Shown one piece after another: positions 9,204 through 63,521 of a stretch of 64,000 nucleotides of DNA. The stretch is from Calothrix sp. NIES-4101 (GTDB lineage: Bacteria; Cyanobacteriota; Cyanobacteriia; Cyanobacteriales; Nostocaceae), in NCBI GenBank assembly GCA_004296455.1, contig AP018280.1, positions 2,418,001 to 2,482,000 of the forward strand, in the 5' to 3' direction. How positions within the stretch are numbered: the stretch's first letter is position 1; each line of letters opens with the position of its first letter. The notes under the pieces are model-generated. The model was not told the DNA's origin, ran no database searches, and was given only the letters and a program-made list of their open reading frames with translations. The position numbers were made by a program, and so were the translations under genes.

Positions 9204-9797
9204 GTGATTAAGAACGATATTTGGATTAAGGCAATGGCTCAACAGGGCATGATAACCCCCTTCGAGCCAAGTTTGATTCGCGAAACCAACGAAAATGATG
9301 TTACACGTCGTGTTATCAGCTACGGATTATCTTCCTATGGATACGATATTCGTCTCTCCCCTAAAGAGTTCCGTATTTTTCGTCATATTCCTGGAACTGT
9401 TATCGATCCCAAAAATTTTAACCCCCAAAATCTGGAATCAAGTCAACTTCATACTGATACTCAAGGTAGTTACTTTATACTTCCTGCTCATTCCTATGGT
9501 TTGGGTGTAGCTCTAGAAAAACTGGAAGTACCAGGTAATATTACGGTTATCTGTATCGGTAAAAGCACCTTTGCTAGATGTGGAATCATTGCCAACCTCA
9601 CCCCTGCTGAGGCTGCTTGGAGGGGTCATTTAACCCTAGAATTTTCCAATTCTTCGAGTGCTGACTGTCGCATTTACGCGAATGAGGGTGTGGTGCAATT
9701 ACTATTTTTAGAAGGGGAGCCTTGTGAAACTAGCTACGATGCCCGTCAAGGAAAATATCAAGACCAAGATGAGATTGTGACGCTAGCTAAAGTGTAA
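9204..9797 (+). CDS. dcd: dCTP deaminase
   Basis: Dcd deaminates dCTP to dUTP, the source of dUMP for thymidylate synthesis. The 197-residue form starts at GTG 9204 (VIKNDIWIKAMAQQGMI), which fits homologues better than the upstream TTG at 9189. Diagnostic segments are SYGLSSYGYDIRLS, the GKSTFARCG nucleotide-binding loop and HLTLEFSNSS with the catalytic glutamate. The C terminus YDARQGKYQ is also typical. It faces thyX across 88 bases, so the two enzymes that make dTMP in this organism are neighbours on opposite strands. Confidence 0.93.
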   Translation: MIKNDIWIKAMAQQGMITPFEPSLIRETNENDVTRRVISYGLSSYGYDIRLSPKEFRIFRHIPGTVIDPKNFNPQNLESSQLHTDTQGSYFILPAHSYGLGVALEKLEVPGNITVICIGKSTFARCGIIANLTPAEAAWRGHLTLEFSNSSSADCRIYANEGVVQLLFLEGEPCETSYDARQGKYQDQDEIVTLAKV

Positions 9798-9885
9798 TCA
9801 GAATTATTCTCATGAATATATTCGGAGGTGGGAAAATGACTACATCGCATTAACTTATGTCATAACTCAACTCTCCGAATATTTC

Positions 9886-10608
9886 TTAAGGGGAAAGTCT
9901 AGCTTTACCCAGACGACTAGATTTATACCAAGCAGCGATAGCAGGTGTCCATTCCTCAAGGTGGGGAAACATCATTTCGCACAGTTTTTGAATTTCCAGT
10001 TGTGCGTCTTTTTTGTAGCGTAGATCGAGGAAATGCAAAAGCGATCGCAAATTAAAACTGACGACAAAATGCTGGCGATAATCAAAGGGAACTTTTCCCC
10101 TGGCGTGTTCCTCGGACATTCCCGCTTCAAAATCAGCTTTGTAACGCTTTGCAGCTTCCAAACACCACTGTAAATCAGCTTCTCGCTGTTCGGGAGAATA
10201 ATAATATTTTTTGCCTTGGCGATCGCTATAGTAACCGACTGGACGCAGGTAGAAAACATCCTCAATATCTTTTTTCCCATCAACCACATCAATTACCTGA
10301 ATACCCGTATATCTATAGGACTGCACATCAAATGATACGCCTGTGCGATGAGTCCGTGCCTGTTGCATAACGCTGTGAGGAAAGTAACCACAGTTAAATA
10401 CTATTTGTGGATGTTCCGTACATCCAAAGTGTCCTCTGTCACCTGCTAATAAACGTTTGACAATAATCTCGCCACATTTATCTTCACTCGGAAAGCGATC
10501 GCGTTCATCATATACAAATGCCTCCGTGTAGTCTTGGTGCATGGCGGCATATATCACTTGCTGGGGATTGGGGGTTTTGGCAAGAACTTCTACACGGAAT
10601 CGCTGCAT
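9886..10608 (-). CDS. thyX: Flavin-dependent thymidylate synthase
   Basis: ThyX methylates dUMP to dTMP with methylenetetrahydrofolate, using FAD and NADPH; it replaces ThyA. The signature appears as ARTHRTGVSFDVQSYRYT, a version of RHRxxSxxxxSxR, and the C-terminal VVSFNLRSLLHFLDLR helix carries the second nucleotide-contacting region. At 240 residues the length is normal. ATG start 10608 is followed by MQRFRVEVLAKT. It converges with dcd, which makes its upstream metabolite. No thyA is present in the window. Confidence 0.94.
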   Translation of the reverse strand: MQRFRVEVLAKTPNPQQVIYAAMHQDYTEAFVYDERDRFPSEDKCGEIIVKRLLAGDRGHFGCTEHPQIVFNCGYFPHSVMQQARTHRTGVSFDVQSYRYTGIQVIDVVDGKKDIEDVFYLRPVGYYSDRQGKKYYYSPEQREADLQWCLEAAKRYKADFEAGMSEEHARGKVPFDYRQHFVVSFNLRSLLHFLDLRYKKDAQLEIQKLCEMMFPHLEEWTPAIAAWYKSSRLGKARLSP

Positions 10609-10724
10609 GACCTACCTGGAAATTTGTTTTATATAAATATTTTTCTCAGTCCTCCATCATATAACTCTAGGAAGAAACGCGGAAGAGGCCAGAAAAGCCT
10701 AGAAGAAAATAATGATTAATCTTC

Positions 10725-10764
10725 TTTACAAAAAGATACACTTTGCTTTACAATTAGTTACATA
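10725..10764 (+). promoter_or_regulatory. HLR1 (RpaB) sites upstream of hli
   Basis: The 18 bases at 10747-10764 (TTTACAAT, TA, GTTACATA) match the high-light regulatory element HLR1, two (G/T)TTACA(T/A)(T/A) units two bases apart, at every defined position. A second weaker pair at 10725-10742 (TTTACAAA, AA, GATACACT) lies just upstream. HLR1 is bound by the response regulator RpaB, which controls Hli genes. The next gene is an Hli gene, so the match is meaningful. Confidence 0.8.
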
Positions 10765-18242: not shown

Positions 18243-19109
18243 ATGAAATTTTTGATTGGGTGTGCTGTTTGGTCGTATAAAGGTTGGCTTGGTGATTTCT
18301 ATCCAAAAGGAACTCGTAATGCCGATTTTTTAAAATTATATAGCCGACGCTTTAGTGCGGTTGAAGGGAACACGACATTCTACGCAGTTCCAAATGCAGA
18401 AACAGTAAAAAAATGGGCAAGTGAAACACCAGAAAATTTTAGCTTTTGCCTAAAATTGCCGCGCGCTATTACCCACAACGGCATCCTCCAACCATACATC
18501 CCAAAAGCATTAGAATTTGCCGAACAAATGCGTCCTCTCGGTACGAGATTAGCGCCCATGTTTTTGCAATTACCACCCAGTTACTCACCAAAATTGATTG
18601 ATGATTTAGGTCTATTTTTAGAAGCTTGGCAACAGACAAAACTACCCTTAGCTGTTGAAGTTCGTCATCGTGACTGGTATCAAGAAATAGATGCGATCGC
18701 ATTGAATAAACTTTTAGAAAACTTTAATATTGGTAGAGTATTGTTAGATAGCCGTCCTATTTATACTGGAGATAATGATCCACAATTAGAATCAGAAAGA
18801 CGTAAGCCTAAATTACCTGTACAATTTACCATCACCTCAAATTTTAGTTTAGTTAGATTTATCTCCCATCCAAAATTAGAGATGAATCAGCAATTCATAT
18901 CAGAGTGGGTTACCCAAATTCAAAATTGGTTACAACAAAATAAAGAAGTTTACTTTTTTGTTCACTGTCCAATTGAAGATTATTCTCCTCGAAACGCACG
19001 ACATTTTTATCAAAATTTTTATCAAAAATTACGAGAAGATGGCTTGTATCTTCCCCCTTTACCCTGGGATGAAGTTGAGCAAGAGCCTAATCAATTAAGC
19101 TTATGGTAA
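18243..19109 (+). CDS. DUF72 (YecE-like) protein
   Basis: The product of 288 residues belongs to the DUF72/YecE family, a TIM-barrel fold of unknown activity. Characteristic segments are IGCAVWSYKGWLGDFYP, FSAVEGNTTFYAVP, FCLKLPRAITH, LPLAVEVRHRDWY and the C-terminal VYFFVHCPIEDYSPRNA. I use the ATG at 18243; a TTG one codon earlier is less likely. The stop at 19109 abuts the 8-bp target duplication of the element at 19118, so the element inserted immediately behind the gene and left it intact. Confidence 0.86.
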   Translation: MKFLIGCAVWSYKGWLGDFYPKGTRNADFLKLYSRRFSAVEGNTTFYAVPNAETVKKWASETPENFSFCLKLPRAITHNGILQPYIPKALEFAEQMRPLGTRLAPMFLQLPPSYSPKLIDDLGLFLEAWQQTKLPLAVEVRHRDWYQEIDAIALNKLLENFNIGRVLLDSRPIYTGDNDPQLESERRKPKLPVQFTITSNFSLVRFISHPKLEMNQQFISEWVTQIQNWLQQNKEVYFFVHCPIEDYSPRNARHFYQNFYQKLREDGLYLPPLPWDEVEQEPNQLSLW

Positions 19110-19286
19110 ATAATTGTGGCTCTTCGGCAAGTTTTATGGAGCTTGAGGTTTTTTTGCAGTAAAACCCTTACAAAACAATGATTACAAGCAACTATGATAC
19201 TTTTTGAGGCTAAATTCCTATGTAATAAGGCTTTCAAGGATTTTTAGCTAAGTTTTCCATAAAAAGAACTGAAGAGCCATAATTGT
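19110..19286. mobile_element. 161-bp MITE with perfect 8-bp target duplication
   Basis: The element spans 19118-19278. Its ends are GGCTCTTC (19118-19125) and GAAGAGCC (19271-19278). Counting inward, the ends match at 18 of 23 positions, including TTTTATGGA. Both sides carry the identical octamer ATAATTGT (19110-19117 and 19279-19286), a target-site duplication. There is no ORF inside. GGCTCTTC-type ends and 8-bp duplications are features of the ISL3 family, so this is probably an ISL3-derived non-autonomous element; the family assignment is inference. Confidence 0.82.
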
Positions 19287-19289
19287 AAG

Positions 19290-19324
19290 TAGGGTGTCTT
19301 ACGCTTTTGCTAACACACCCTGCG
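19290..19324. repeat. GGGTGT...ACACCC dispersed palindrome
   Basis: GGGTGT (19292-19297) pairs with ACACCC (19315-19320) around CTTACGCTTTTGCTAAC. It resembles the GGGTGTGTTAGCG/CGCTAACACACCC hairpin repeat that is scattered through many cyanobacterial genomes. It sits between the MITE and the 3' end of parA and could end transcription of either strand. Confidence 0.55.
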
Positions 19325-19353
19325 ACTAATTTTCAGTTAATCAACCTCTATGT

Positions 19354-20238
19354 TTAAAGTTTCAAAAGTAACTCCTGCGTTAACTGTACAAAAGCTTTAG
19401 AACCTGCCGATTGCGGATTATTTAACACCACAGGCATAAAACTATCAACAGCCTTCGCCACATTTGTATCTACAGGTACTTGGCTATTAAAAATTTTATC
19501 ATTCCCAAAATCTTGATAAACACGATTCATGACCTGTTTGTAATATCTGCCACTAAGCAAATTATTACTAAACATAGTAAAGACAATCCCTAGCATTTTT
19601 ATATCTATCTTTGCTTCTTGTTCATGACTATCTTTTAACTGTCCAATTCGTCTTTCTAACAACTGAATTCCGACAACAGAAAGCGGTTCCGGTTTTGCCG
19701 GAAGTAAATAATAATTGCTGGTTGCTAATGCACTACGAGTCAGTAAATTATAACCAGGAGCGCAATCTAAGATAATAAAATCATAATCATTGCGAATCGG
19801 TTCTAAAATCTTCCCTAACAAAACCCGTTCAAAACGATTCCAAATAGTTTCAAAATCTTTTTCACCTAATTGAATAGCTTGTTGGTGTAAAAGTTCTGAC
19901 ACTACAAATTCATCATATAAATCAATATCACCAGGAACCAAATTTAAACCTGGGACATTACAAACCTGTGTTTGAATAATATCTTGAATTGTGTGGGTTG
20001 GCGCATCTTCTGGAGTAATAATCTGGTCAATTAAATAGCGAAAAGTCTTACGTTGTTTGCGACGATTAGCAAATTCTACAGGTGACATCAAGCTGAGTGT
20101 CGCACTAATTTGTGTATCTAAATCGAGTACAAGTACCTTCTTACCATGATTTTTTGCCAAACATGTTGCTATGTTCACAGTGAGGGTTGTTTTCCCCACA
20201 CCACCTTTCATATTTGCTGTTGCAATTACATGTCCCAT
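19354..20238 (-). CDS. ParA family ATPase
   Basis: The 294-residue protein is a ParA/MinD-type ATPase with the deviant Walker A NMKGGVGKTTLTVNIA at the N terminus, VLVLDLDTQISATLSL as the Walker A' region, and DFIILDCAPGYNLLT as Walker B. ParA proteins polymerise on DNA and position plasmids, chromosomes or protein cargo. There is no N-terminal HTH, so it belongs to the short (type Ib or chromosomal-like) forms. No parB follows it on its own strand; instead a nuclease-ParA fusion and a ParB-like gene start 284 bases away on the other strand. Its role there is unknown. Confidence 0.88.
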   Translation of the reverse strand: MGHVIATANMKGGVGKTTLTVNIATCLAKNHGKKVLVLDLDTQISATLSLMSPVEFANRRKQRKTFRYLIDQIITPEDAPTHTIQDIIQTQVCNVPGLNLVPGDIDLYDEFVVSELLHQQAIQLGEKDFETIWNRFERVLLGKILEPIRNDYDFIILDCAPGYNLLTRSALATSNYYLLPAKPEPLSVVGIQLLERRIGQLKDSHEQEAKIDIKMLGIVFTMFSNNLLSGRYYKQVMNRVYQDFGNDKIFNSQVPVDTNVAKAVDSFMPVVLNNPQSAGSKAFVQLTQELLLKL

Positions 20239-20522
20239 TGATTAAATCCTTGGAAAAAGCTTCCATCTAAGTAGCGTACAAATCTAGTTATGAGTTGGAA
20301 ATTTTTGCTTGATTTAATATTTGCCACAACTCACTTTCATTTTTTTTGGCAGTCAGATTATATCAATGAAGTGCGTATTTTTTACTGCGATCGCATAAAC
20401 ACTGCCATAAACAGTATTGATAATACTCTGAGGGATTTACTTAATTTATAGATAGCAGATTTTATACATATTGTTTGTAAAACAGTTAAAATAAATACAA
20501 ATTAGAACCATCTTGTACTAGT

Positions 20523-22007
20523 ATGACCGTTCAGTATAGTTCAAGTTTGCACAGTATTTTTAGTGCGATAACACCTCATAGTAACGAGTCTGATGTCGAG
20601 AACAAGGTTATAGCCCCAATTTTACAAATGTTCGGCTACGATTCTTGCGATTGGGAATCTCAAGCCATAGTTGGTAAATCAAAACTTGACTTTTTGGTAC
20701 TTCCACCATCATCAGTAGCACCATATGCACCGTATTTAGTTATTGAAGCTAAGGCTCCTAATAAAAATTTAAGTAACAGCCTCTGGCAAATAAATGATTA
20801 TATGCGTAAGACAACAGCCTTTTTAGGGTTGTTAACTAATGGGTATGAATTTCGTATACTTTATAACTATGAGCAAAAGCCTAAAATAATTTTAGAATAC
20901 ACTCAAGAAGATTTTATTAATAATTTTGGTGTACTCAATAAGCTCTTATGTAAACAAACTTGCTTACTTATCTATAAGAGTTTATATCAAAATGAACTGA
21001 ATTTTCGTTCTAAATTAATCGAAAAAATTTCCCAGTTATTTAATGACAAAGATATTATTACAACAGTTACTAATAAAACTTCCTCAGGAACTAATAAATC
21101 ATCAACCAAAGACGAAAAGGAAAAACAAGGCATGATTATTACTGTATTTAACAATAAAGGTGGTGTAGGTAAAACCACAACTACAATAAATCTTGCTGCT
21201 GCACTAAATAAACTTGGGAAACGTGTATTACTTGTTGATATTGATGCACAGGCTAATTTAACAACAGGGTTAGGAATTGATCCATTAGAAGATATAGAAG
21301 AACAGGGTAAAAAAGATATTACACATTTTCTGACTAATCCAAGAGTTCAGTTAGAAGATGTGGTTATTCGTAAACAATGGGATGATGTTGAGCTTGATAT
21401 AGTCCCCTCCCATATTCGTTTAAGTTATATGGATAATGAATTAAGTAACACACTAGATATTGATCGAGTGTTAGACAAAAAATTAAAAAAACATCTTGGA
21501 CAATATGATTATGTATTAATCGATCCACCACCATCATTTGGGAAAGTCAATACTATTGCATTAATGGCATCTTCTGCCGTTTTTATTCCTACACAATTAA
21601 CTCCTTACCCTGTTCGTGCATTAGAATATGTCATGAATCGAGCAATCGCAGTAGATCAATCAAGAGATGAAGGTTTACAGATTTTAGGTGTTGCTGTCAG
21701 TATGTACGATAGAGCTTCCCGGAAAAATACTGCTGATATGACTCAAAAAATCAACGATATTATTGCAAAAAAGCCAGAAACAAAAGACGTTCAGTTGTTT
21801 CCTGCAAATACATGGATTCCAAGACTTACTATTGTTGCAAATGCTGCTGATGATAGTAAAGGGTATCCCCTTTGTTATGCAGAGTTTGATAAGGCTTTAA
21901 AAGCGAATGAAAAGGAATCTGCACAGGATGCTTTTAACTGTTATCTAGAACTAGCAAAGCATTTAATTTCCATAACTAAAACAAAAATGGAGTATACAAA
22001 TGGATGA
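20523..22007 (+). CDS. HSDR_N-type nuclease fused to ParA ATPase
   Basis: This 494-residue protein joins two domains. Residues about 15-125 look like the N-terminal nuclease of type I restriction subunits: KLDFLVLPP (Asp56), YLVIEAKAP (Glu75, Lys77) and QINDY (Gln89, Tyr93) give the D, E-x-K and Q-x-x-x-Y positions of that PD-(D/E)XK group. A Ser/Thr/Lys-rich linker follows, then a ParA ATPase from residue 204: FNNKGGVGKTTTTINLA (Walker A), LLVDIDAQANLTTGLG, and YVLIDPPPSFG (Walker B). The frame is uninterrupted. It overlaps the next gene by 8 bases (ATGGATGA), indicating translational coupling. Partner and target are unknown; partition, plasmid control or defence are possible. Confidence 0.85.
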   Translation: MTVQYSSSLHSIFSAITPHSNESDVENKVIAPILQMFGYDSCDWESQAIVGKSKLDFLVLPPSSVAPYAPYLVIEAKAPNKNLSNSLWQINDYMRKTTAFLGLLTNGYEFRILYNYEQKPKIILEYTQEDFINNFGVLNKLLCKQTCLLIYKSLYQNELNFRSKLIEKISQLFNDKDIITTVTNKTSSGTNKSSTKDEKEKQGMIITVFNNKGGVGKTTTTINLAAALNKLGKRVLLVDIDAQANLTTGLGIDPLEDIEEQGKKDITHFLTNPRVQLEDVVIRKQWDDVELDIVPSHIRLSYMDNELSNTLDIDRVLDKKLKKHLGQYDYVLIDPPPSFGKVNTIALMASSAVFIPTQLTPYPVRALEYVMNRAIAVDQSRDEGLQILGVAVSMYDRASRKNTADMTQKINDIIAKKPETKDVQLFPANTWIPRLTIVANAADDSKGYPLCYAEFDKALKANEKESAQDAFNCYLELAKHLISITKTKMEYTNG

Positions 22008-22764
22008 TAAACAAAGACGCGATCGCATTGTTAATTATCTGAGAATTAAACCAGTAAATCATGGTCAGATTTACGCTTTTCAAATTGCTATTCCAGCTTC
22101 TGAAAATAAAGATATTCCTTTTGAAAGACGTGAATATCTCAAGATGAGTTTAAGTCAGCAAGGGACAAATTTAATTCCGTTAATTGTGCGACGTACTGAA
22201 GCATATAGCGAAGAGGAAGAATATGAATTAGTATACGGTGCTGACTGGTGTTTAGTTGCTAAAGAATTAGATATCGAAAAGCTTTGGGTGTGGGTTTTTG
22301 ATATGTCTGATGAGGAAGCTGCTACTGCAAAAGAAGAGATGCAGCAATTGTTAGAAATAGAAAAATCTGAAGTGAGTAAAGTTTTAGTTGAGACTAATAC
22401 AAAAGAATCAGAACTGATTCAAACTATTGTTCAACAGATGAATAAGTTATTTCAGCAAGTGGAAGTACTCAGCAAGAAAATTGATCTAGTTTCTACATCT
22501 GTAAAAGAACTTCAGACAATTGAAAATAAACCAATATTAAGTGATGCTGTAATTAGCCAAATTATGACAAATATAAAAGAAGTCATAGAAGAAGCTATAA
22601 CCAAAATACCTACTTCGATCAGTGGTAATCAGCAAACAGACTACAATAAAATGACAGTTCCAGAACTGAAATTAATAGCAAAAGCACGAAAAATAAAAGG
22701 TCATAGCGGTATGACAAAAGCACCATTAATTGCAGCTTTGACAAAGTCTGATCAAGATGATTAA
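22000..22764 (+). CDS. ParB-like protein with coiled coil and Rho-N-like tail
   Basis: The 254-residue product begins with a ParB/sulfiredoxin-fold-like region (residues about 20-110) in which LIPLIVRRTEAYSEEEEYELV and YGADWCLVAKELDIEKLWVW correspond to the arginine motif and following helix of ParB N domains (these run on, so they are quoted in two parts). A Glu/Gln-rich coiled-coil stretch fills residues about 105-190. The C terminus MTVPELKLIAKARKIKG, then PLIAAL, fits a Rho-N/SAP-like nucleic-acid-binding module. No central ParB HTH is visible. Its start overlaps the stop of the nuclease-ParA gene, so the two are made together. Confidence 0.72.
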   Translation: MDDKQRRDRIVNYLRIKPVNHGQIYAFQIAIPASENKDIPFERREYLKMSLSQQGTNLIPLIVRRTEAYSEEEEYELVYGADWCLVAKELDIEKLWVWVFDMSDEEAATAKEEMQQLLEIEKSEVSKVLVETNTKESELIQTIVQQMNKLFQQVEVLSKKIDLVSTSVKELQTIENKPILSDAVISQIMTNIKEVIEEAITKIPTSISGNQQTDYNKMTVPELKLIAKARKIKGHSGMTKAPLIAALTKSDQDD

Positions 22765-22873
22765 GCAAGCCGTTGCGGTAAGTTATCTTGAGGAAACAGA
22801 ATAAATATCTACAGCGAAATTATTAAGTATATGAGCGTAACAAAATACGACCTTTAATGTGATTATCATCGAA

Positions 22874-22912
22874 AACTAAGTGAGCAACCGAGGAAGGTAG
22901 CTTAGTTATTTT
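22874..22912 (+). terminator. Probable terminator of the nuclease-ParA operon
   Basis: AACTAAG (22874-22880) and CTTAGTT (22901-22907) form a 7-bp stem with a 20-base loop, followed by ATTTTT. It is 110 bases after the ParB-like stop. Confidence 0.55.
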
Positions 22913-22943
22913 TATGCTCTTTTTACCGTCATTTTCGATCAAT

Positions 22944-23417
22944 TTAAAATATCTCAAATAACCCATCATCCAAGTCATAACCCAATAATTGCGCCATTGA
23001 TTTTAAGCGAGATTGGTGGGGTATACCCTGACGTTTGAGCCAATCACCCAAAACGAAAATTTTATGCATTAAAAATATCTCTAAAGCTTCGGGATTATAC
23101 TGAATCCCTTCTTTAGAAAACTGATGTGGTACAAGCATCGCACTATAGCGAGCAAATTCGCCTTCTTTCCAATCAAGTAAAAACGGCAACCAAGGATAAC
23201 GTGAATCAAGGCGTATAAACCACAGACGCACTTCCGGTATTTCCGACAATTCTCTAGGGTCACCGACTTCTCTGGGATAATCAATATTAAAGCTTAACTG
23301 TTGTTCTGAAGAGGCAAGTTTACCCTCAGCGAGAATTGGCTCGATTATCTCAGTAGCAGGTGATAAATCGAGGGTATTGATGTGATTAGAATTAAGTGCG
23401 ATCGCTATTGGAGCCAT
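22944..23417 (-). CDS. CRR6 family NdhI maturation factor
   Basis: CRR6 (DUF1817) assists assembly of the NdhI subunit into the NDH-1 complex of the photosynthetic membrane. The 157-residue product carries the strongly conserved blocks QQLSFNIDYPREVGDPRE, IPEVRLWFIRLDSRYPWLPF (20 residues) and GIQYNPEALEIFLMHKIFVL, ending with LLGYDLDDGLFEIF. The identification is by recall of these blocks. It is a soluble protein without a signal peptide. It converges with the nuclease-ParA operon and appears monocistronic. Confidence 0.87.
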   Translation of the reverse strand: MAPIAIALNSNHINTLDLSPATEIIEPILAEGKLASSEQQLSFNIDYPREVGDPRELSEIPEVRLWFIRLDSRYPWLPFLLDWKEGEFARYSAMLVPHQFSKEGIQYNPEALEIFLMHKIFVLGDWLKRQGIPHQSRLKSMAQLLGYDLDDGLFEIF

Positions 23418-60953: not shown

Positions 60954-63521
60954 TTAAGGATTAATACTAGGTGCAGTCAATTGACTATCTTGGGAATTTT
61001 GGTTTTCGTATCCTGATTGAGGATTAAAACCTTGAGGATTTTGATTAGAATTTGTTGTTTCAGCATTAGTAATTTGTTGTTGGTAATTATCTGCTAAAAC
61101 GTTTCTATATTTAGGCTTTTTATACATTTTTGCTAAAGCTTCAATCAGGGAAAAATCATAAATACTCAGAGCTTTATCATCGTAGCAATTTGGAGCATTA
61201 GGGTCTTGCTCCATATATCCATGAACAAGACTAAATAACTCTGGGGGAACATTAGTAATGTTCTCTGTATATCTAAGTTGTTCACCTGTAATGTATGTAA
61301 AGCAAATAGCTCTGACATTAAGAGCATCATTATCAGCAACCTTAAGGTTTTTCAATTCATCTAAGTTTGATTTAAAAAGCCCTGCTACCGATTCTGTCCA
61401 ATATTTTTGACGATATTCTTCGTCTTGTAAAGCTTTATTGTCTTTTGGAGACACAATTAAATCTTGAACAGCAGAAATAATGGAGCCATTTGTACGAGCT
61501 AACTGTGTTAAATTCAATAAGTTTCTGTCGATTTTTTCAGGAGTTTGCTGATTTTTATCTAACCATTTCGTGATTCTAATCCAAGCACGCTGATTAAAAA
61601 GATGAGCTTGCCTGAGATTTTCATCAGTTACCGAAGGTTGAACACGTGAATTAGGTGGATTTTTTAAGAAGAAATCAACCAGACTCAATCGAGCATAGCG
61701 AGTCATACCTTCAATATTGTCTAAGTATGCAGCTTGTTTGTAATAATCTTTAGCTTTAGCTAAATCTCCTAGATGTTCATAGGACATTCCTAAACCAATT
61801 TCGACTTCCGCTTTGTCTTCATCTCCACTAATAAATTTTTTTGCCTGAAGAAAACTATCCTGAGCTTTCAGCCAATTGGTATTTTGTAGATGTGCTTCTC
61901 CTTGAGAGATATAAACTTTTCCCCATAATGGTAAAGATGCAGCAAGAGTACCAGTAATTGCAGTCATTCCAGCTGCGATCGCTAAAGCAGTAGGTGCTTG
62001 TTTACTAGGGGGTAATTGTAAATTGGTAAATAGTTTTTCCAGGGTTTTTCTACCACCACTAGTTAATGCTGCTGCACCACCTGCACCCAAGCCGATGACT
62101 TGCAAGACAGCAGCCATGTTTTGGGATAAATCAGCTTGTTGAACCTCTTGTCCTTCAACTTTCTGGAAAAATACCTGACTACTATAAGCAGTAAAAGCAG
62201 CACCAACACCCAAACAAACTACAGCTAAAGTGTTAAATAACCAATCTTTACGGGTTCCGGGTTCTTCCTCAGAACCAACGATCGCAGGTTTGAGTTCCCA
62301 CCACCAGCGATTTTGACGTTTTAAACTATCTTTCCATTGCCTAATTTGGTTGTCTTTATTCAAATCAAGCCGATATTGCTTTAATTTGTTGTCTAGAGCA
62401 ATTATTTGTCTGGCTAGCTTTTCGGGAACAGGTTTATCTCGATAAGCTCCCTCAACTGCTTCCTCTACCCCATCGCGAGCTAAAAGGGTGTCTAAAAGTT
62501 GTTCTGAGGAAGGGGGTTTGCTGTTATCAATTACCTGAATAGTTTTTTCGTAACGAGCGATCGCTTCATTAGGTAAAGGAATAGAACGAGTGAAAGACCA
62601 CCACCAATTCATCTCTGGTGGTTTGAGGTTATTTTTCCACTCATCAACGATGTCGTCGTTAGCAAAAGCTTGCGATTGAGCTTTTAACCGCTTATCTAAT
62701 TCAATAATTTTTGCAGTCAGATGACGAGGTGGTTGTTGCTGCTTAGTCCAAGCTTTTTCTACAGCATCCCGTGCTAGCAACACCTCTAATAATTCTTCAG
62801 AACTGGGTTTTGGCGGTGATTCTAAAGCAAATAAAGCCTTTTCGTAACGTTCTACCGCTTGAGTTGGTATTGGTTCAATATCGCTGAGTTCCCACCACCA
62901 AGTATTAGGTGTAATTTTACTTAAACTCTTCTTCCAATACTCCAACTTCCCATCTCTATTAATTACATCCGCAAGCGATCGCAATCTTTCATCCAAATCT
63001 ATAACTATTTTGGCAATATGTTCTGGTAAAGGTTGATTATCTCGAGAAGTCTCAATTGCATCACGAGCAAGTAATACTTCTAAAACTTGTTCTTGAGTCG
63101 GGTAGGGAAGTGCTGCTTCGAGTAGGGAAATACTCTCTTGATAACGTTTTGCTACTTTGGTTGATGACATTACCAAAGGATATTTCAAATGCCACCACCA
63201 CATATTTGGCGCGGCGTTCAAACTATCTTTCCATTGCGCTAGTTCGTCATCTTCACTGAGAATTTTGGCTTGTGCTTTCAGACGCTCATCCAAACTTAGT
63301 AATCTGGCGTAACTAATACTAGTAGGATTTTGATCCATTTGCTTTTTTTTCTCTACCCCATCACGTGCTGCCAGCACAGCAACTTTCTGCTCAAATGTTG
63401 GTCGTAAAGATTCTTGTTCCAACGTAATTAGAGTTTCTTCATAAACATCGAGTGCTATATCTAATGGTGATCTGGGGGATGTAGTGGGAGATATTGGAGC
63501 TTGTCCGTTGACCTGAATCAT
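60954..63521 (-). CDS. Large protein with four WWW-ending repeats, TM helices and TPR
   Basis: The 855-residue protein is not a family I recognise. Residues about 20-410 hold four tandem repeats of about 90-100 residues. Each has a YEExLxxLE helix, a VLLARDAxE block, an xLDxRLKAQA block, a W-K-x-S-L block and ends in WWWxL or WWWSF. About residues 420-540 contain three hydrophobic helices, the second next to a Gly/Ala-rich loop. After that come TPR-like units (GLGMSYEHLGDLAKAKDYYKQ, 21 residues if quoted with its neighbours, so shortened: MSYEHLGDLAKAKDYY) and a Gln/Asn-rich tail. It is monocistronic. Scaffold or surface role is a guess. Confidence 0.7.
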   Translation of the reverse strand: MIQVNGQAPISPTTSPRSPLDIALDVYEETLITLEQESLRPTFEQKVAVLAARDGVEKKKQMDQNPTSISYARLLSLDERLKAQAKILSEDDELAQWKDSLNAAPNMWWWHLKYPLVMSSTKVAKRYQESISLLEAALPYPTQEQVLEVLLARDAIETSRDNQPLPEHIAKIVIDLDERLRSLADVINRDGKLEYWKKSLSKITPNTWWWELSDIEPIPTQAVERYEKALFALESPPKPSSEELLEVLLARDAVEKAWTKQQQPPRHLTAKIIELDKRLKAQSQAFANDDIVDEWKNNLKPPEMNWWWSFTRSIPLPNEAIARYEKTIQVIDNSKPPSSEQLLDTLLARDGVEEAVEGAYRDKPVPEKLARQIIALDNKLKQYRLDLNKDNQIRQWKDSLKRQNRWWWELKPAIVGSEEEPGTRKDWLFNTLAVVCLGVGAAFTAYSSQVFFQKVEGQEVQQADLSQNMAAVLQVIGLGAGGAAALTSGGRKTLEKLFTNLQLPPSKQAPTALAIAAGMTAITGTLAASLPLWGKVYISQGEAHLQNTNWLKAQDSFLQAKKFISGDEDKAEVEIGLGMSYEHLGDLAKAKDYYKQAAYLDNIEGMTRYARLSLVDFFLKNPPNSRVQPSVTDENLRQAHLFNQRAWIRITKWLDKNQQTPEKIDRNLLNLTQLARTNGSIISAVQDLIVSPKDNKALQDEEYRQKYWTESVAGLFKSNLDELKNLKVADNDALNVRAICFTYITGEQLRYTENITNVPPELFSLVHGYMEQDPNAPNCYDDKALSIYDFSLIEALAKMYKKPKYRNVLADNYQQQITNAETTNSNQNPQGFNPQSGYENQNSQDSQLTAPSINP

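Follow-up and report, generated by a model that had tools for sequence, protein, structure and literature searches.

A nuclease-ParA fusion and its ParB-like partner in cyanobacterial chromosomes, and their mutual exclusion with an FtsK-nuclease gene set

What might a ParA ATPase do when it is joined, in one polypeptide, to a nuclease of the type found at the N-terminus of HsdR? ParA/ParB systems serve to transport DNA or other cargoes, and the question is raised by a locus in Calothrix sp. NIES-4101, which we examined within a window, that is, the whole stretch of 64,000 nucleotides analyzed here (contig AP018280.1, positions 2418001-2482000; feature positions below are those of the window). 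An HsdR-N-type nuclease, a linker of ~70 residues and a ParA ATPase together form a 494-residue fusion (20523..22007, forward strand) encoded in one open frame of 494 codons, and the start of a 254-residue partner gene (22000..22764, forward strand) overlaps the fusion's stop, with 8 nt shared. The partner comprises a ParB_N-like head, a predicted coiled coil, and a Rho_N/SAP-like tail. Because the locus sits on a 7.24-Mb contig of a 7.59-Mb genome, it is chromosomal. From sequence comparisons we tentatively propose that the fusion is an ATP-gated DNA-policing nuclease, probably directed against foreign DNA, a reading that we prefer while holding it somewhat short of likely.

The original prediction held that an unbroken frame connects a restriction-type nuclease to a complete ParA, and this was borne out by the frame itself and by Pfam matches to both parts. 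In a full-length scan, AAA_31 matched residues 205-386 (E 2e-45) of a ParA ATPase domain that spans residues ~205-490 (21135..21992, forward strand), and HSDR_N_2 and HSDR_N both matched at E 7e-5, just below their curated cut-offs (23.4 bits versus 25, and 23.2 versus 25.1). Scanned alone, the N-terminal domain exceeded the HSDR_N_2 cut-off (25.6 bits). Matches to both families at E<=1e-3 were present in 16/16 N-domains tested, drawn from the window-like clade A and from a second clade, B, and a full-length clade B fusion surpassed the HSDR_N cut-off at 27.2 bits. These matches, together with invariant residues, support a predicted PD-(D/E)XK (HSDR_N) domain at residues ~20-130 (20580..20912, forward strand).

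Conservation was assessed in 89 full-length fusions, 71 from the organism's family (Nostocaceae, hereafter the family) and 18 from outside it. The residues E22, D56, E75, K77 and Y93 were invariant in 89/89, and E26 was present in 88/89; the codons of the D56, E75 and K77 catalytic residues lie at 20688-20690, 20745-20747 and 20751-20753 of the forward strand. Of the catalytic residues originally named, then, Asp56, Glu75, Lys77 and Tyr93 stood and Gln89 did not, being Q in merely 19/89. All eight residues of the deviant Walker A motif KGGVGKTT (residues 212-219; 21156-21179, forward strand) were likewise invariant, and the ParA-like partition family phrog_164 matched the fusion at E 6e-49. 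When the PDB was searched with an N-domain profile, 7ue2 was the only chain returned; none of its individual stretches scored below E 4.5, and we took the match as spurious. The profile matches and the invariant catalytic residues support a predicted nuclease function for the N-domain, and, judged from the invariant sites, the nuclease and ParA activities both look retained.

Searching with residues 1-202 recovered the fusion in 75/145 family genomes, at 76 sites, with a weak match in one further genome (G026, E 3e-4) excluded from family counts and from the two-by-two comparison below. Clade A accounted for 12 family sites and clade B for 64, the latter mostly ~460 residues long, with N-domains 26-31% identical to that of the window (nine compared). 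All 76 sites were read: 70 held an unbroken fusion with the partner directly downstream, two ran off their contigs, and four had broken frames (G021, G065, G037, G135), and the fusion is therefore dispensable. Beyond the family, the N-domain profile matched 63/292 genomes of a phylum sample at E<=1e-6 and 54 at E<=1e-20. Of these 54, 37 were outside the family, including five with matches in frames of <300 residues (G157, G197, G212, G249, G401), and 20/37 were fetched and read. These 20 sites, in other families, orders and classes, yielded 16 with fusion and partner, two with a fusion lacking a recognized partner, and two with broken frames. Overall, the order of fusion and partner was kept at 86/96 sites read, so that the fusion is far from a one-genome curiosity. 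Additionally, 24/76 family sites were on contigs >5 Mb, and the gene there is therefore no plasmid gene. The system is chromosomal and spans several families, and more than one order, of cyanobacteria. When contigs of bacterial and archaeal genomes were scanned with a degenerate pattern, a sole relative emerged, in a Calothrix sp. metagenome-assembled genome; the same scan also missed many known family members, and absence elsewhere is therefore not demonstrated.

Two loci departed from the usual arrangement. In one (L115:7922-10366), a single fusion had two consecutive partners downstream, one with a B-type and the other with an A-type profile match. In the other (L132:1079-7152), a broken nuclease-ParA frame was accompanied by a 523-residue ParA-bearing frame that had its own partner and no detectable nuclease domain.

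The partner was described in the original prediction as an overlapping ParB-like protein with a Rho-N-like tail and no helix-turn-helix (HTH), and each of these points held. Its tail (residues 214-249; 22639..22746, forward strand) matched Rho_N at 27.6 bits, above the cut-off of 24.9, and its head was matched weakly by ParB_N, best at residues 42-109 (22123..22326, forward strand; 19.4 bits versus a cut-off of 26.3). Some relatives crossed the ParB_N cut-off (L056 at 42.0, L058 at 28.1 and L124 at 29.6 bits) and others fell below it. A long helix or coiled coil is predicted between head and tail. The gap between fusion and partner was <=30 nt at 83/86 sites with a partner, and the two are therefore probably translated together.

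The motifs of canonical ParB were absent from these proteins. The ParA-binding motif LG-R/K-GL was found in 0/86 partners, including that of the window, and the arginine of the P motif (GxxR) in 0/81 with a site that a regular expression could locate (the other 5/86 gave no location), 61/81 having E instead; GxRR occurred within the first 120 residues of 0/86. No HTH_ParB match was obtained in Pfam for the 11 distinct partners scanned, of 86. Moreover, TIGR00180 matched eight places in the Calothrix genome at E<=1e-6 and the partner was not among them. By these motif and HTH tests, the partner does not appear to be a ParABS ParB, and the earlier suggestion of a partition system carrying a control nuclease fails on these features (LG-R/K-GL in 0/86, GxxR in 0/81, no HTH in 11 scanned). 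In the same genome, ParA-like and canonical ParB matches adjoin on contigs C2, C3 and C4 (55-127 kb, presumably plasmids), and one chromosomal TIGR00180 match above cut-off (C1:826149-826472) has no ParA-like match nearby.

A related alternative is that this is a standard partition or positioning locus of the ParA/ParB type, in which the HsdR-like domain is inactive and serves as a DNA-binding or dimerization part. The full-signature ParA with its phrog_164 match, the ParB_N-like partner and the overlapping genes are what such a locus would have. However, the invariance of D56, E75, K77 and Y93 in 89/89 is unexpected for a dead nuclease, the partners are without the ParA-binding and P motifs, and 24/76 family sites are on contigs >5 Mb. 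No iteron or centromere-like repeat array was present in window positions 19000-23000, the whole genome not having been searched for parS. We regard this alternative as very improbable.

Clustering of the 86 partner tails with BLAST gave three classes and four singletons. The largest class (57/86) included a member, from L056, that matched the helix-hairpin-helix (HhH) model HHH_3; the second (13/86) was the Rho_N/SAP-like class of the window; and the third (12/86) was an unnamed 'TWENL' class, scanned members of which gave no convincing Pfam tail match. Two classes thus have matches in families that bind DNA or nucleic acids (HhH, Rho_N/SAP). Each head type carries Rho_N-type tails (10 and 3) as well as 'TWENL' tails (5 and 7), and the tails have therefore been swapped. 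Among 11 clade A partners, the heads had a mean identity of 71% and the remainder, comprising the tails, 33%.

The second ParA, PARA2 (294 residues; 19354..20238, reverse strand), diverges from the fusion across a 284-nt spacer (20239..20522, no strand) and forms one side of a variable slot. In 142/145 family genomes it has a single match apiece at E<=1e-80. Many of the family loci read had the order IleRS-like gene, PARA2 on the reverse strand, cassette, and two glycosyltransferase-like genes, the IleRS-like and glycosyltransferase-like names being given by eye, with no family search. In the window, the flanks of the cassette differ from the slot flanks in sister genomes, and a CRR6 family NdhI maturation factor (22944-23417) lies directly behind it on the opposite strand. 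The divergent ParA of the original prediction was found at the reported distance of 284 bases, but it is not a constant neighbor outside the family. There, the fusion faced PARA2 or a second, PARA2-like copy head to head in five genomes (G199, G318, G307, G404, G244), most of the 20 fusions read had no adjoining PARA2, and 16/37 N-domain genomes had no PARA2 match at E<=1e-50. PARA2 is thus often not beside non-family fusions, and the fusion and partner are therefore the unit, with PARA2 a frequent neighbor and possible helper. Assignment of PARA2 as McdA was rejected, with none of 6non, 6noo or 6nop among 30 matches at E<=1e-3. A second PARA2-like ParA, ~51-52% identical, was head to head with the fusion and apart from the main PARA2 (L113:7668-8570 and 9793-10749; G244, contig C120).

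The slot cassette was either the fusion with its partner or an unrelated three-gene set, c10-c9-c5 (L045:1801-7468). Specifically, c5 (864 residues in L045) has 3'-5' exonuclease, PD-(D/E)XK and FtsK domains, c9 (690 residues) is an AAA_16 ATPase, and c10 (285 residues) has no clear Pfam match. The best PADLOC match of c5 was SspH (E 2e-68), covering the FtsK motor only (481-848) and with no ordinary-FtsK control. The set was scored by c9 alone, c5 and c10 being seen only in the loci read, with a single c9 query, a threshold of E<=1e-20, and partial matches (G014, G063, G085) counted as present. On this basis, c9 was in 81/145 family genomes and the set in 32/292 genomes of the phylum sample; in one non-family genome (G149), c9 was ~5 kb from PARA2. 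It was also on one conjugative Pseudanabaena plasmid record (NC_019690.1 region, L199). A further gene, c12 (L045:663-1445), is repeatedly found at such loci; its product of ~260 residues has, by eye, a membrane-type C-terminus.

The two cassettes largely exclude one another. Among the 145 family genomes, 59 had the fusion only, 65 had c9 only, 16 had both and five had neither (Fisher p 2e-19). In this and in the permutation, tree and distance analyses, fusions with broken frames (four) or at contig edges (two) were counted as present; with broken fusions scored absent, the counts became 57 fusion only, 67 set only, 14 both and seven neither (p 4e-19). Two of the 16 double genomes (G021, G037) have a broken fusion, and the other two genomes with broken fusions (G065, G135) are without the set. 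In within-genus permutations, the 124 genomes with exactly one cassette exceeded all 20,000 shuffles (mean 100.6, maximum 118; p<=5e-5), and 2,000 draws of one genome per genus gave a median p of 4e-7 and a worst of 3e-5. A PARA2 tree of 142 genomes, from which the 3/145 without detected PARA2 were left out, provided 21 independent pairs on supported branches, in which c9 changed opposite to the fusion in a median of 15, in the same direction in 0, and was unchanged in six (median p 6e-5, range 8e-6 to 2e-3). On this tree, the fusion requires at least 38 changes and c9 at least 36; the tree is a quick single-gene one, and PARA2, being in the slot, could travel with it. The exclusion survives phylogenetic correction. 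Within the genus of the window, the three genomes sampled had a clade A fusion, clade A and B fusions together, and c9 only, respectively.

Could the pattern arise simply because the slot beside PARA2 exchanges unrelated cassettes via shared flanks, so that their functions need not match? The shared position and common flanks (IleRS-like gene, PARA2, cassette, two glycosyltransferase-like genes) fit such positional exclusion. Yet 12 of the 16 double genomes have both cassettes within 10 kb of PARA2, and the slot can therefore hold both. Moreover, in 19 genomes the fusion was not within 10 kb of PARA2, and c9 was absent from 17/19 of these, compared with its presence in 65/70 fusion-less genomes (p 5e-12). 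Ten of the 19 unlinked fusions were on another draft contig, for which distance was unavailable; of the nine on the same contig, eight were without c9 (p 4e-7), seven of these lying >380 kb from PARA2. Unlinked fusions also go without c9, and the exclusion is therefore not mere competition for the slot, an explanation that we consider improbable. Outside the family, 260 genomes included 37 with the fusion, 15 with the set and one with both (G249), against ~2 expected, and there is therefore no exclusion signal overall. Among the 47 of other families that have PARA2, one had both, 20 the fusion only, 11 the set only and 15 neither (p 0.006, relatedness ignored).

The simplest reading is that fusion plus partner and the set are functionally interchangeable, the other module being lost or not taken up, and that genomes therefore usually have exactly one of the two. 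Such repeated mutual replacement is a strong comparative argument for the same job, and the apparent stand-in relation points to one in handling or policing DNA.

Under the DNA-policing interpretation that we favor, fusion and partner would form one complex, a nuclease patrolling DNA under ParA control. ATP-bound ParA dimers would spread nonspecifically on DNA, while the partner would pair via its coiled coil, recognize a class or structure of DNA via its tail, and switch ParA via its head. Two nuclease domains might then be gathered and paired at marked DNA, with cleavage following. The policed DNA would be plasmid, phage or conjugating DNA that does not belong, and, in the family, the unrelated set of exonuclease-PD-(D/E)XK-FtsK protein, ATPase and third gene could do the same job. 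Policing is favored by a nuclease domain of restriction type, by the modularity of the tails, by rapid turnover and by occasional decay, and the repeated swapping of cassette and partner tail looks like an arms race. A ParA that bears a conserved nuclease of its own, together with a partner whose tail is exchanged like a cartridge, is a design not mentioned in the titles and abstract openings searched. If the complex acts on foreign DNA, it would be a novel form of restriction that is fixed in the chromosome, and would probably hinder genetic manipulation of these strains.

Several results weigh against this proposal. Among 72,556 plasmid records, none covered 80% of either fusion form and the partner had no match, so that the homologues are not plasmid partition genes, as they might have been at the outset, and a plasmid origin was rejected; two of the best plasmid matches (H28, H39) were nuclease-less ParA-type genes beside an annotated ParB. 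The N-domain alone matched six haloarchaeal plasmids, at HsdR-N-type proteins and over <=65% of the query. No phage record searched carries the fusion; the 20 that matched the N-domain, 18 of them haloarchaeal, did so over no more than 60% of the query, mostly at annotated methylase or type IIG proteins. Neither fusion nor partner convincingly matched a system in PADLOC-DB 2.0.0, the best match of the fusion being PDC-M28B at residues 156-242 around the Walker A motif (E 3e-10), with mad2 matching the N-domain at E 0.006. The neighbors of the 20 non-family sites were not richer in defense models than the control: 10 PADLOC models were matched, each by 1-2 of 113 neighbors, compared with 33 models, each by up to 3 of 49 proteins, in a small control consisting of the window itself. 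Up to six neighbors of 120-1100 residues were scanned per locus, and the 113 include a few ParA- or partner-like genes. A defense-island reading was rejected on this basis. The genes flanking the family slot look, by eye, like IleRS and glycosyltransferase genes. AlphaFold2 gave no fold confirmation because the fusion alignment had two sequences (window and L040; mean predicted local distance difference test score, pLDDT, 34; no fold search), and the partner modeled alone was also of low confidence (mean pLDDT 44, with a helix around 141-170 at 63-72; fold searches were not based on it). Finally, the presence of one of two machines in 140/145 genomes is unusual for defense genes and would be explained no less well by a standing need of the cell. 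The defense role first suggested is thus supported in part: the turnover and tail swapping fit it, whereas the lack of neighbor enrichment and the one-of-two occupancy speak against it.

A viral origin was likewise rejected, as the sole viral contig (L188) has its HSDR_N-like domain on a non-ParA protein. That protein (L188:5004-7676, 890 residues) has an HSDR_N-like N-terminus and, by eye, a central part like a P-loop ATPase and an S1-like end, and is a possible nuclease-ATPase relative.

The standing need might be maintenance of the cell's own chromosome, both machines being two solutions to one task, for example clearing or resolving septum-trapped DNA or trimming back copies left unsegregated in polyploid filaments. 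ParA and FtsK are classical segregation motors. At least one of the machines is present in 140/145 family genomes, often beside a near-universal ParA (142/145), the exclusion holds where the fusion is away from PARA2 (17/19), and the seats are chromosomal, the fusion not having been found on plasmids and the set on one plasmid record. Against this, dozens of swaps in one family and modular tails are odd for housekeeping, the machines occur in a minority of the phylum sample (fusion-type N-domain 54/292, set 32/292), five genomes have neither, and G065 and G135 have a broken fusion without the set. We consider chromosome maintenance a genuine possibility, albeit rather less than likely. Its specific form, in which either machine performs a near-obligatory DNA task on the family's own polyploid chromosomes and both work with the neighboring conserved ParA, is in our estimation unlikely, without being far-fetched; if true, it would amount to a partition-type system that cuts DNA while moving or clearing it. 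Action on own DNA would also bear on the sorting and cleaning of chromosomes in polyploid cyanobacteria, a process about which the portions consulted of two sources indicate that little is known (PMC6469415, PMC3480399).

Elsewhere in the window, a ComEC-type competence protein, a DNA-uptake gene, is encoded at 71-1873 (Pfam Competence, E 4e-53), and an 855-residue frame at 60954-63521 has no Pfam match at E 1e-5. No Rfam match was present in the window, the divergent spacer included, and an RNA element was thus rejected.

How, then, does the system compare with those already described? Like ParABS, it has a ParA with a deviant Walker A motif and signature lysine (KGGVGKTT, 89/89) and a downstream partner with a ParB_N-like head, in genes that mostly overlap or abut. 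Unlike ParABS, its ParA is fused to a nuclease, its partners are without LG-R/K-GL and GxxR and, in the 11 scanned, without an HTH, their tails are HhH, Rho_N/SAP or unnamed, and there are no centromere-like repeats in window positions 19000-23000. In McdAB carboxysome positioning, a ParA-type ATPase works with a non-HTH adaptor; the fusion here differs in carrying a nuclease, and its ATPase matches McdA structures weakly (E 2e-7). With type I HsdR it shares the nuclease family, by Pfam, and a D...ExK site, but the fusion chain is without a helicase motor, its motor being ParA, and no helicase, methylase or specificity family (HsdM/HsdS) was matched significantly in the window fusion, the partner or 15 window neighbors. 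The HSDR_N domain is also mentioned, in the part consulted of one study, as a neighbor domain of GmrSD (PMC4619093). The sections consulted of a survey of ParB-CTPase-fold proteins with lineage-specific fusions define the ParB motifs as the ParA-binding LG-R/K-GL and the P motif GxxR, report that solely a DUF3850 fusion is consistently co-encoded with parA, and describe searches that applied Pfam gathering cut-offs (PMC12704722). Those proteins resemble the partner in combining a ParB_N-like head with non-canonical domains, while nuclease-fused ParA and HhH/SAP tails are unmentioned in these sections and the window partner falls under the gathering cut-off used there (ParB_N 19.4 versus 26.3 bits). 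A nuclease-fused ParA was also unmentioned in the titles and abstract openings of the open-license literature searched. The system fails some defining tests of both ParABS and type I restriction. A further comparison is with the FtsK-nuclease set, possibly akin to SspH-type restriction motors, which differs from the fusion in its domains and resembles it in combining nuclease domains with a DNA-moving ATPase, often in the same slot beside PARA2.

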